Source of the DNA: Stutzerimonas stutzeri
Lineage (GTDB): Bacteria > Pseudomonadota > Gammaproteobacteria > Pseudomonadales > Pseudomonadaceae
Reading direction: 5' to 3'
Length of the DNA: 64,000 nt
NCBI RefSeq assembly: GCF_024448955.1
Contig: NZ_JAMOIH010000001.1
Coordinates: 248,001 to 312,000, forward strand
Within the stretch, counting starts at the first letter, position 1. Each line of letters starts with the position of its first letter. The notes beneath the pieces are model-generated. The model searched no databases. It was not told where the DNA came from and was given only the letters and a program-made list of their open reading frames with translations. Shown here piece after piece: positions 60,063-64,000 of this stretch. The translations under genes were made by a program, and so were the position numbers.

Positions 60063-60254
60063 TCAGGCGCGATCAATGCCTTTCTTCAGGGTGTCTTTGG
60101 CTTCACCTTTCACCTGCTGCGCCTCTCCCCTGATTTCCTGTCCTTGACCTTCGTTCTTCATGCGCTGATTGTCAGTGGCCTCACCGATACCTTGTTTAAC
60201 CTTTCCGGCTGCTTCATTGAGGTTGCCTTTCATTTTGTCTTCAGAGCTGCTCAT
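60063..60254 (-). CDS. CsbD-family stress protein
   Basis: 63-aa hydrophilic protein, MSSSEDKMKGNLNEAAGKVK to GIDRA, with the CsbD pattern of repeated G-x-x-K/Q motifs (GNLNEAAGKVKQGIGEATDN; GEAQQVKGEAKDTLKKG). CsbD proteins are general-stress proteins of unknown action, often sigma-S or sigma-B dependent. GAGAGGAA precedes the ATG. Single gene with its own terminator. Confidence 0.92.
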   Translation of the reverse strand: MSSSEDKMKGNLNEAAGKVKQGIGEATDNQRMKNEGQGQEIRGEAQQVKGEAKDTLKKGIDRA

Positions 60255-60360: not shown

Positions 60361-61356
60361 TCAACCGCTACGTGCTTTTTTTATCAACCGGTTGAACAGC
60401 GGCCGTCCGGCCAGATGAATGAATAGCGGCGCGCCAACGATCAGATAGAAGTAATAGGTCACGAAGCGCCAAACAACGATCGCGGCCGCAGCGGTTGATT
60501 TGCCTACCAAAGGCGCCAGCAAGGCAGCCGATGCTAAATCGGCACTCCCTGCACCACCCGGCAGCAAGCTCAACTGCCCGGCAGTAAGGGCCAGTAGCTG
60601 GATGATGAAGGTCCACGCCCAGGCGAGTTGGCTACCCAACCCCTGCAGGGTGAGGTAAAGCACGCTGTAGCGCAGCAGCCAGTGCAGTGTCGTCAGTACG
60701 AACACGCCAAGCAGGATCGCCCGCGGCAACCGGAAACAATCCAACAGAGCATTGCGGAAGCTCAACACCTTGCGCGCCCAGAAGCGCTTCCGTCGGGCCT
60801 TCATGCCCAGACGACCAGCCAGCCAACCATTGATCAAAAATACCTGCCGATGGAAACGCCCGAGCAACGCCAGCAGCACCATCAGGCCGAGCAGTAACGC
60901 AGCGCTGAAACCCAGCAGGCTGGCAATATAGGTATTGATCGAATGAGTTACCGCGTAAATCAACACACCCACCAGCGCGCAGCTAAAGAACAGTAGATCG
61001 GCCAATTGTTCGACGGCAAAGGTTGCGGTGCCCTTGGCAGGCGTCACGCCCTGACGAAGCAACAATGCCATCATCGTCAGCGGCCCGCCGGCCCCGCCCG
61101 GCGTGGCGCATATCGCAAATTCGGTGGCGATGACGATGCCCAGCGCACGAGGCTGCCGCAGGCGGCGTCGCCCGATCAGCAGTCGCAACCGAAACGCGTT
61201 GAGATACCAGCCGAGCACGATCATGCCAAGCATCGCCAACAACAGCCCCGGCGGGAAGCGCAACAGCCGCTCGAACAGCCCGGTGCCGCCCAACAGAAGC
61301 GGAACCAGTGCCGCGATCAGCAAGGCACCGGCCAACAGCCACCAGCGGCGGTTCAT
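60361..61356 (-). CDS. YbhN/UPF0104-family membrane protein
   Basis: Polytopic inner-membrane protein of the lysylphosphatidylglycerol-synthase transmembrane (flippase-like) family. ATG at 61356 (MNRRWWLLAGALLIAALVP) gives 331 aa and overlaps the DUF2334 stop as ATGA; the upstream extension is not needed. About eight membrane segments; motifs EFAICATPGGAGGPLTMMAL and LSLLPGGAGSADLASAALL. No soluble aminoacyltransferase domain, so not a full MprF. Probably flips or modifies a lipid made by the neighbouring genes. Confidence 0.88.
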   Translation of the reverse strand: MNRRWWLLAGALLIAALVPLLLGGTGLFERLLRFPPGLLLAMLGMIVLGWYLNAFRLRLLIGRRRLRQPRALGIVIATEFAICATPGGAGGPLTMMALLLRQGVTPAKGTATFAVEQLADLLFFSCALVGVLIYAVTHSINTYIASLLGFSAALLLGLMVLLALLGRFHRQVFLINGWLAGRLGMKARRKRFWARKVLSFRNALLDCFRLPRAILLGVFVLTTLHWLLRYSVLYLTLQGLGSQLAWAWTFIIQLLALTAGQLSLLPGGAGSADLASAALLAPLVGKSTAAAAIVVWRFVTYYFYLIVGAPLFIHLAGRPLFNRLIKKARSG

Positions 61357-62117
61357 GCCAGGGCGCTCGCGACGGGCGCGTGCCGGCGCAACCACCCGAT
61401 TTTGGTCATTGGCGTTCTTCCTTCCGCCAGCAGCCGAGCCAGCAAATCAAGCCAGTAACGACGCGAGAACTCATGGCGCATATCGACCGGATGCAGCCCG
61501 AGGCGCAACACCGCTGCCTGACGGTGCCGGCTGAGCATCTTTTCACTGACTAGATGCGACATGCCGCGGCGCCAGGCGCTGCGCGCGCTCCAGACCAGGC
61601 CGGGAGCGTCTATTGCGGTGTAATCGGGCAATAGATAGAAATGCCCCGGGTCGCTGGTGTAGCTCAGACCAGTTGCCGCCAAGGCCTGCCGCGCCCCGGT
61701 ACCCAACAACCACGCCGGCGCGACGAAACCGTGCAAAGGCCACTGGTTTCGCTCGAACAGCTCGATGCCCCGCTGCAGGCGCCTGGCTGCCTCGTGCCGA
61801 TCCAGCGAATAGAACTCACCTTCGTGCGTAAACACCCGGCGCATGAACCAATCGCGAGGCGTGCGAGGCGCCGGCGCCTCGTCCGCGTGATGGTAGCCGT
61901 GCAGTATCAGCTCATCACCGCGGGCGAGACGCCCGTCGAGCATATGCCTGAATTGATGATGGTCTTCGAGTCGGTTGCGGTGATGGAAATCCGGCACCAC
62001 CAACCAGCAGATCGGAATTCCGCCCAGCGCATCGACGGCTTCGACAAAGGATTTGTAGTCAGGCCAGGTTTCCGGCGCCACGTCATGCAGCACCAGTATC
62101 AGGCTGCGCTCAGCCAT
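61353..62117 (-). CDS. DUF2334 polysaccharide-deacetylase-like protein
   Basis: 254-aa cytosolic-looking protein of the NodB-type carbohydrate-esterase superfamily (DUF2334). Metal-site motifs: LVLHDVAPETW at the start, the HGYHHAD pair (about 73-79), and APAWLLG. No signal peptide. It overlaps the glycosyltransferase stop by 8 nt and the YbhN gene by 4 nt, so the three are one translation-coupled unit. It may deacetylate the sugar added by the glycosyltransferase; inferred only. Confidence 0.85.
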   Translation of the reverse strand: MAERSLILVLHDVAPETWPDYKSFVEAVDALGGIPICWLVVPDFHHRNRLEDHHQFRHMLDGRLARGDELILHGYHHADEAPAPRTPRDWFMRRVFTHEGEFYSLDRHEAARRLQRGIELFERNQWPLHGFVAPAWLLGTGARQALAATGLSYTSDPGHFYLLPDYTAIDAPGLVWSARSAWRRGMSHLVSEKMLSRHRQAAVLRLGLHPVDMRHEFSRRYWLDLLARLLAEGRTPMTKIGWLRRHAPVASALA

Positions 62118-63225
62118 GCACGGCGACCGGCAGATCGACCGTGCCCATTACCGCGTGATAGTGCGCCAACAGGCCGGCCACTACAGCGTCCCAGGCATGA
62201 TGAGCTTCGACGTGCTGGCGGGCTTGGGTACCCAGCAAGCGTGGGTCATCCTCGAAGATCTCGCGCACCGCCTGCGCCATCGCCAACGCATCCAGCGGAC
62301 GGCACAGGCGACCGGTATGAAACGGCACCAGCTCAGGCAATGCACCGGCTCGCGCAGCAATCACCGGAATGCCACAGGCCATGGCTTCCAGTGCGACCAG
62401 CCCGAACGTTTCCTGGTTACCGGCATGTAGCAACACATCGCAGCTGGCCATGTAACGCGCCACGTCGGCTGCCGGGCAGAAACGATCGATCACCGTAACG
62501 TTCTCCGGCACCCGGTGAGGCATGCGCGACCCAACCAGTAACAGATGATAGGGCTTGCCGAGCGACCGAGCGGTGTCCAGCAGGACATCGATGTTCTTCT
62601 CTCTGGAACCGCGTCCGGCAAAGATCAGCAGCCGCGCCTCGTCTGGCAATCCCAGCTTCTGGCGCAGTTCAGGATCGCGCCGGTCCGGGCGGAAGGTTTC
62701 CAGATCCACGCCCAAGGGCTGCACATAGACATCGCCGACGCCAAGGTCCTGCAGCTTTTCGGCCATTATCCGACTCGGCGCAAGCACACGGTCGAAGCCG
62801 CTGTACAGCCGCGAGACGTAGCCGTTCATGTTGGTGCCCAGCCACCCGCCGATGCGGTTGCTTACTAGCAGCGGCAGGTCGGAGTGATAGAACCCGATCA
62901 CCGGAACGTCGAGACGTCGCCCCGCGTCCAGCGCCGCCCAGGCGGTCATGTACGGATCACCGACTTCGATCACATCGGGGCGCAGGATGCGCAACTGATT
63001 GCGCCACGGAGCGCGCCGTACCGGGAAGCGGTAGCCCTTGCCGAAAGGCAGTGCCGGTGCGGGTATCTGGTAAATGCCGCCGCTATGGCTGTGACTGTCG
63101 CCCGGCACCAAGATGCTGTGGCGGACCCCCGAATACAGTTGCAGCCGGCGGTGTTTGGCTTCGAGATAGGTACGCACCCCACCACTGGCGGGTGCGTAGA
63201 ACATGGTCATGTCGGCGATATGCAA
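62110..63225 (-). CDS. Group 1 (GT4) glycosyltransferase
   Basis: GT-B fold retaining glycosyltransferase, 371 aa, starting MHIADMTMFYAPASGGVRTYLEAK. The donor-binding half shows IFAGRGSREKNIDVLL and the E(x)7E signature in NQETFGLVALEAMACGIPV. No membrane segment; probably acts at the inner face of the membrane on a lipid acceptor. First gene of the cassette with DUF2334 and YbhN. The 171-nt gap upstream to the YihY gene should contain its promoter. Confidence 0.92.
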   Translation of the reverse strand: MHIADMTMFYAPASGGVRTYLEAKHRRLQLYSGVRHSILVPGDSHSHSGGIYQIPAPALPFGKGYRFPVRRAPWRNQLRILRPDVIEVGDPYMTAWAALDAGRRLDVPVIGFYHSDLPLLVSNRIGGWLGTNMNGYVSRLYSGFDRVLAPSRIMAEKLQDLGVGDVYVQPLGVDLETFRPDRRDPELRQKLGLPDEARLLIFAGRGSREKNIDVLLDTARSLGKPYHLLLVGSRMPHRVPENVTVIDRFCPAADVARYMASCDVLLHAGNQETFGLVALEAMACGIPVIAARAGALPELVPFHTGRLCRPLDALAMAQAVREIFEDDPRLLGTQARQHVEAHHAWDAVVAGLLAHYHAVMGTVDLPVAVHG

Positions 63226-63396: not shown

Positions 63397-64000
63397 TTAG
63401 CCATCGACGCGCTTGTCCCCCTCATCCTTGCCCTCGGACGACGCATGCTCAATGACAGCATTCATCTCCGCTCCAAACAGCAGCACCGCTGCGGAAATAT
63501 AGAAGTAGAGCAACAGCACGATCACCGCCCCGATACTGCCGTAGGTGGCGTCGTAGTTGCCGAAGTTCTGCACGTAGATCCCGAAGCCCACCGATGCGGC
63601 AATCCAGACGATGACCGCCAGTACCGAACCCGGCGTGATGAAGCGAAACTCCTGCTCGACATCTGGCGTGACGTAATACAGCAACGCCACGACCAGCATC
63701 ATCAGAAACACGATTACCGGCCATCGCAGCCACATCCACAGTGTCACCACAATGTCCTTCAGGCCCACCTGCTCGGCGAGCCACTCGATCACTTGTGGTC
63801 CGGTCACCATCAAACCTGCCATCGAGAGCAGAATCAGCGCCAGGCCGACGGTATAGACGACCGCCAACAGCATCAGCTTCCAGGTCGGCCGGCCCTCTTT
63901 GACGTCGTAGGCCTTGTTCATGGCATTCATCAGTGAGCGAACGCCGATCGACGCGGACCACAACGCAACGAGAATACCTATCGATAGCAGCCCACTTTTC
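63397..64000 (-). CDS. YihY/UPF0761-family membrane protein, partial
   Basis: Cut by the right edge; the frame stays open to the last base, so the N-terminus is missing. The 200 visible residues (KSGLLSIGILVALWSASIGV onward) show five membrane segments and the family stretch FRFITPGSVLAVIVWI, ending in a charged tail. The family was long called ribonuclease BN by mistake; its function is unknown. Same direction as the glycosyltransferase gene, 171 nt apart. Confidence 0.9.
   Translation of the reverse strand, partial: KSGLLSIGILVALWSASIGVRSLMNAMNKAYDVKEGRPTWKLMLLAVVYTVGLALILLSMAGLMVTGPQVIEWLAEQVGLKDIVVTLWMWLRWPVIVFLMMLVVALLYYVTPDVEQEFRFITPGSVLAVIVWIAASVGFGIYVQNFGNYDATYGSIGAVIVLLLYFYISAAVLLFGAEMNAVIEHASSEGKDEGDKRVDG

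Follow-up and report, generated by a model that had tools for sequence, protein, structure and literature searches.

The window (the whole analysed stretch of 64,000 nucleotides of Stutzerimonas stutzeri DNA) carries three minus-strand genes with overlapping ends, in the order gpgS, gpgD, gpgF. The first, gpgS (62110..63225), starts with a TTG codon preceded by GGAG and encodes a GT4 glycosyltransferase of 371 residues, assigned as N-acetylglucosaminyl-phosphatidylglycerol (GlcNAc-PG) synthase; its length of 1116 nt equals that of PA14 gpgS. The second, gpgD (61353..62117), encodes a DUF2334 protein of 254 residues with a CE4 fold, assigned as the GlcNAc-PG deacetylase. The third, gpgF (60361..61356, ATG start), encodes an MprF/YbhN-type membrane protein of 331 residues, a predicted lipid flippase or scramblase, for which the list of open reading frames gives a longer reading of 344 residues from a GTG start. 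The genes gpgS and gpgD share 8 nt (62110-62117), and gpgD and gpgF share 4 nt (ATGA, 61353-61356), exactly the overlaps recorded by the first-pass annotation.

Each of the three proteins lies far above the curated cut-off of an NCBIfam equivalog: (i) GpgS scores 617.2 bits with NF053787 (N-acetylglucosaminyl phosphatidylglycerol synthase; cut-off 480), and the next-best NCBIfam model gives only 78.9 bits; (ii) GpgD scores 409.3 bits with NF053788 (GlcNAc-PG deacetylase; cut-off 280); (iii) GpgF, computed on the 344-residue reading, scores 494.7 bits with NF053789 (glucosaminyl phosphatidylglycerol flippase; cut-off 320). The Pfam domains found, GT4/GT1 (PF00534/PF13439) in GpgS, DUF2334 (PF10096, E 4.7e-30) in GpgD and LPG_synthase_TM (PF03706, E 4.2e-43, on the 331-residue reading) in GpgF, bear out the families proposed at first pass, namely GT4, a NodB-type/DUF2334 deacetylase and a YbhN flippase-like protein. 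The GpgS translation contains the E-x7-E motif, as ETFGLVALE. Compared to a locus taken as that of P. aeruginosa PA7 (L082), the identity is 70% for GpgS, 67% for GpgD and 57% for GpgF.

Residues H11-D12, H73, H77, L206, L208 and H209 of GpgD are invariant among 20 homologous sequences, that of the window included. They make up the HD, HxxxH and LxLH patterns, presumably the deacetylase motifs, and are likely to be catalytic. The AlphaFold models of GpgD (pLDDT 71, with residues 154-193 below 50) and GpgF (pLDDT 75) are of middling confidence, and their best fold matches have modest TM-scores of about 0.5-0.6. Within these bounds, all five Foldseek matches of the GpgD model at E <= 0.001 are deacetylases, the best being chitin and other polysaccharide deacetylases, and ArnD (8t0j) follows at rank 6 (E 1.1e-3, TM 0.55). 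All five Foldseek matches of the GpgF model at E <= 0.001 are MprF structures, three of them P. aeruginosa MprF entries. A sequence search of solved structures returned seven GT4-type matches to GpgS at E <= 1e-10 and no match to GpgD or GpgF at E <= 1.

Published pathway and predicted chemistry

The gpgSDF operon of P. aeruginosa (PA4311-PA4313) has been described by Khan, Palmer and Guan (J Bacteriol, November 2025) and makes glucosaminyl-phosphatidylglycerol, GlcN-PG (PMC12713373). They report that a gpgS insertion mutant contains neither GlcNAc-PG nor GlcN-PG, that complementation of gpgS was unsuccessful, that GlcNAc-PG builds up in a gpgD mutant and supplying gpgD reverses the defect, and that the three genes expressed in E. 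coli yield both lipids (PMC12713373). In a gpgF mutant GlcN-PG is still present but reduced, and the paper gives flipping by GpgF as a prediction, made without a flippase assay (PMC12713373).

In the host of the window, GpgS would glycosylate the phosphatidylglycerol (PG) head group at the cytoplasmic face with GlcNAc, for which UDP-GlcNAc is the probable donor; we infer both acceptor and donor from orthology. GpgD would then remove the acetyl group of GlcNAc-PG to give zwitterionic GlcN-PG, and GpgF, through its MprF-type membrane domain, is predicted to bring this lipid to the other leaflet, a step that is predicted in P. aeruginosa as well. With the P. aeruginosa genes, others have demonstrated the conversions of PG to GlcNAc-PG and of GlcNAc-PG to GlcN-PG, and the window copy would carry out the same two steps. 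Taken together, orthology, operon structure and conserved residues make it very probable that the cassette is gpgSDF and that it performs the chemistry of its P. aeruginosa orthologues.

The gpgSDF of the window is a relative's copy of the published Pseudomonas operon, a real cassette that is already known. The first-pass annotation had ranked it as the best candidate for an undescribed system; the operon has a name, a paper (PMC12713373) and three NCBIfam equivalogs, and with its pathway already tested in mutants no claim of discovery is warranted. The logic proposed at first pass, by which a membrane lipid is glycosylated, deacetylated and translocated, agrees with that publication (PMC12713373). 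The cationic glycolipid expected at the same time has to be replaced by a zwitterionic phosphoglycolipid, made from PG as the substrate.

An operon of this construction could instead make a different aminosugar lipid in the host genus, such as an aminohexosyl-diacylglycerol, if the acceptor of GpgS had changed. The hexSDF genes of C. difficile are described as sharing this three-part logic but using another acceptor lipid (PMC10128005), and acceptor specificity of GpgS is unreadable from sequence. Against a changed acceptor stand the 617.2 bits that GpgS scores as a GlcNAc-PG synthase, where the equivalog asks for 480, compared with 78.9 bits for the best other NCBIfam model, and the 70% identity to the GpgS of the presumed PA7 locus, so that such a product is regarded as highly improbable.

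Distribution and surroundings of the operon

In a profile search of 148 genomes of the family, GpgD and GpgS exceed their cut-offs in 39 genomes each, which are identical genomes, and GpgF in 54, while not one of 14 control genomes reaches any of these cut-offs. The operon occurs in 17 of the 18 genomes sampled from the host genus; the remaining one (G015) carries none of the three genes over cut-off. A search of 321 genomes of the class revealed GpgD over its cut-off in 12, the window genome included; a GpgF match at E <= 1e-30 adjoins it in all 12, and the GpgF cut-off is passed in five. Many family genomes also encode a second GT4 protein (e.g., G008:C1:622650-623522), probably a different glycosyltransferase, since its 120-160 bits or so against the GpgS model fall far short of the 480 required.

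The operon loci compared were all found through GpgD and come from the 39 family genomes and 11 other class genomes, 50 in total, the window genome being present in both searches. In 50 of 50 the three genes stand side by side in a single order and on one strand. The 8-nt overlap of gpgS and gpgD recurs in 42 of these operons and the 4-nt overlap of gpgD and gpgF in 22, a count that depends on the automatic choice of start codons; because of this recurrence the overlaps are not regarded as chance. Linkage in relatives, the lack of which was named at first pass as one of two findings that would refute the cassette, thus holds for every genome with GpgD over cut-off; gpgF, however, also occurs alone. 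Judged by sequence, the range of the operon now takes in 17 of the 18 genomes sampled in the host genus, with another 11 from elsewhere in the class.

Directly downstream of gpgF lies a gene for a CsbD-like protein of 63 residues (60063..60254, minus strand), identified by PF05532 and synteny. Upstream of gpgS, the C-terminal part of a gene for a YihY/BrkB-family membrane protein (63397..63999, minus strand; PF03631, TIGR00765 and synteny) runs off the window. The usual order in the host genus is mutS-fdxA-csbD-gpgFDS-yihY: the segment fdxA-csbD-gpgFDS is found in 14 of 17 loci, csbD adjoins the operon in 16, and yihY stands on the opposite side in 16 (the exception being L058). One locus (L054) has no match to csbD or fdxA. 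The genes csbD and yihY are the usual neighbours of the operon in the host genus, downstream of gpgF and upstream of gpgS respectively, and any part of theirs in the pathway would be hypothetical. In other members of the family the setting differs, and a small gene together with purU faces the operon in 13 of 39 family loci.

The first-pass annotation had read the cassette as a probable insertion at the place where murB follows rne in P. aeruginosa. Among the 17 genus loci, rne takes the place of fdxA in the window genome and in G138 only, and the csbD-gpgFDS-yihY block is the usual arrangement of the genus; an insertion between rne and murB is therefore not supported. Since rne adjoins the operon in so few loci, it was probably brought there by a rearrangement, and the operon was probably not inserted beside it. 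Of the two MurB_C matches in the window genome, one is on another contig and the other shares the contig of the operon, at a distance of about 113 kb.

Past yihY and beyond the window, on the other strand, two further genes have been identified (L085:12637-15176), one for a Polysacc_synt/MatE-type membrane protein and one for a polysaccharide pyruvyl transferase. They occur in 9 of 17 and 8 of 17 genus operon loci, respectively, and their proximity could be taken to mean that the cassette serves a polysaccharide pathway, with GpgF as a polysaccharide-related transporter. However, the pair is lacking in the remaining 8 (or 9) loci of the genus and in all 22 operon loci from the family's other genera; present in about half of the genus loci, it does not travel with the operon. 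The equivalog assignments and the MprF fold of GpgF likewise speak against a polysaccharide role, and the orthologous operon is reported to yield GlcN-PG in E. coli (PMC12713373). A polysaccharide function is therefore scarcely credible, and both genes are taken as neighbours, not as parts of the gpgSDF operon.

gpgF without gpgS and gpgD

In 15 of the 54 GpgF-positive family genomes, GpgF passes its cut-off in the absence of GpgS and GpgD. All 15 orphan genes (L032-L046) are located beside purU, and the upstream place that gpgS and gpgD would take is occupied by hpt, upp and uraA. In the P. nitroreducens/citronellolis group, the orphan lies between uraA and the small gene/purU (L032-L046; L126-L137, L140, L164). 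In a tree of 74 GpgF proteins the 15 orphans form one clade (100/99), which is nested in operon-borne GpgF and has the operon-encoded GpgF of the presumed PA7 genome as its sister.

A scan of named genomes was seeded with GpgF, so that gpgS or gpgD without gpgF could not be found by it. Among the best 80 of 364 relatives, which were kept, 61 carry all three genes and 19 carry gpgF alone; these 19 named orphans overlap in part with the 15 of the family. In a tree of 90 GpgF proteins they fall into three groups: 14 of P. nitroreducens/citronellolis, four of P. viridiflava/maioricensis/folii, and P. koreensis B1M1-15. The number of changes on this tree is three, with three forced by the starred branches and three throughout the 5-95% bootstrap range. 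Judging from the GpgF trees, at least three separate losses removed gpgS and gpgD but left gpgF in place.

Relocation of the missing genes was also considered. The 15 family orphan genomes contain no match to GpgD at E <= 0.001 and no GpgS over cut-off. Genome-wide searches covering seven of the 19 named orphans gave 0/7 for GpgD and 0/7 for GpgS over cut-off (weaker GT4 matches in 7/7). A move of gpgS or gpgD elsewhere is thereby ruled out for the 15 family genomes and for these seven named loci. The search for remnants near orphan gpgF, covering 11 of the 19 named loci, gave a single match at E <= 1 (0.087, L134), taken as chance; this search overlooked a short gpgS start in the P. koreensis B1M1-15 locus (L193), which is visible only by DNA comparison.

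In that locus an upstream chemoreceptor-like gene is followed by the start of gpgS and then by gpgF, and gpgS and gpgD are otherwise gone. The scar (L193:5954-6004) consists of approximately the first seven gpgS codons fused in frame to a short tail, giving a frame of 16 codons, the stop of which shares 4 nt with the gpgF ATG, just as the gpgD stop does in a complete operon. It is known from one draft assembly, and an in-frame join would arise by chance in one case out of three.

Nine GpgF-like proteins of distant class genomes (L116-L124) also have no neighbouring gpgS or gpgD. They were left out as evidence of loss because seven of the nine score below the NF053789 cut-off, several have long branches, and weak GpgD-like matches are present elsewhere in three of the nine genomes (G298, G309 and G348); one of the loci (L124) lies on a 3.4-kb contig.

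The orphan genes might represent neutral leftovers of operon decay with no function of their own. The function of orphan GpgF is so far only putative, and the scar, with its one assembly and its chance of joining in frame, can be read that way. On the other hand, the reading frames are unbroken (328-333 residues) in all 15 family loci and all 19 named loci, and three separate losses each kept gpgF, one of them leaving an in-frame scar with the 4-nt overlap. The median pairwise dN/dS (Nei-Gojobori, own script) of the 15 orphans is 0.189, within the range of two sets of operon copies (0.145 and 0.242); as dS is unequal, 0.36 in the orphan set and about 1 in the operon sets, only the absence of decay is claimed from this comparison. 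Orphan gpgF shows no sign of decay in the clade tested, and the leftover explanation, which concerns the orphan genes only, is considered unlikely.

GpgF thus appears to be kept by selection in pseudomonads without the known genes for its presumed substrate, and the parallel losses suggest a role beyond GlcN-PG. Counting against such a role, orphan-gpgF species may make GlcN-PG by another route. The MprF of P. aeruginosa is reported to be a promiscuous scramblase of many lipids for which selectivity by proximity has been proposed (PMC11980842). Because gpgF persists in lineages that lost gpgS and gpgD, our own reading makes GpgF a broad lipid scramblase, which acquired its role in GlcN-PG translocation through proximity to GpgS and GpgD. 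In its full form, belief and doubt being evenly balanced, this reading holds that GpgF is a general pseudomonad phospholipid scramblase and not a dedicated GlcN-PG flippase, that an ancient operon brought it together with gpgSD, and that gpgSD were deleted and intact gpgF kept in at least three lineages. If it is true, species with orphan gpgF are natural tests of what GpgF moves.

On the same reading, the retention of gpgF after deletion of gpgSD would make the NCBIfam name "glucosaminyl phosphatidylglycerol flippase" misleading for orphan proteins. A pass of NF053789 alone proves little, since the cut-off is also passed in 15 family genomes without gpgS and gpgD and in only 5 of 12 class genomes with GpgD; in annotation it should not be taken as evidence of GlcN-PG unless both other genes are present. 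The orphans also expose a gap in the published pathway at GpgF, the step that its authors could not assay. Among the titles and abstract openings searched, nothing on orphan gpgF and nothing linking DUF2334 with a glycosyltransferase was found; most subscription journals lie outside this coverage, so this is no proof of absence.

Comparison with known systems

The window operon agrees with gpgSDF of P. aeruginosa in the three protein families, the gene order, the passing of all three equivalog cut-offs and the GpgS length of 371 residues. The difference relates to the surroundings: purU faces the operon in P. aeruginosa PA7 and in several other genera, whereas csbD and yihY usually flank it in the host genus.

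GpgD resembles ArnD, a CE4-type deacylase of lipid-linked aminosugars, at the level of the fold only. The substrates of the two enzymes differ, that of ArnD being linked to undecaprenyl.

The hexSDF system of C. difficile likewise combines a synthase, a deacetylase and an MprF-like flippase for the production of an aminosugar lipid (PMC10128005). In contrast to gpgSDF, its acceptor is reported to be a hexosyl-diradylglycerol, and the annotation of HexS is that of a monogalactosyldiacylglycerol (MGDG) synthase; the two systems were compared by description (PMC10128005). The GpgS of the window is of the GT4 type.

The closest parallel for the last step is MprF, the lysyl/alanyl-PG synthase and flippase, whose transport domain is matched by GpgF both in sequence (E 1.8e-6) and in fold. 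In both systems a positive charge is added to PG and the lipid is then flipped, in the case of GpgF as a predicted step. However, GpgF, with 331 residues and PF03706 as its only domain, has no C-terminal aminoacyl-PG synthase domain for aminoacyl transfer, and it reaches 26.6 bits with the MprF equivalog NF033480, the cut-off of which is 600. In gpgSDF the charge would come instead from a deacetylated sugar, provided by two separate enzymes.
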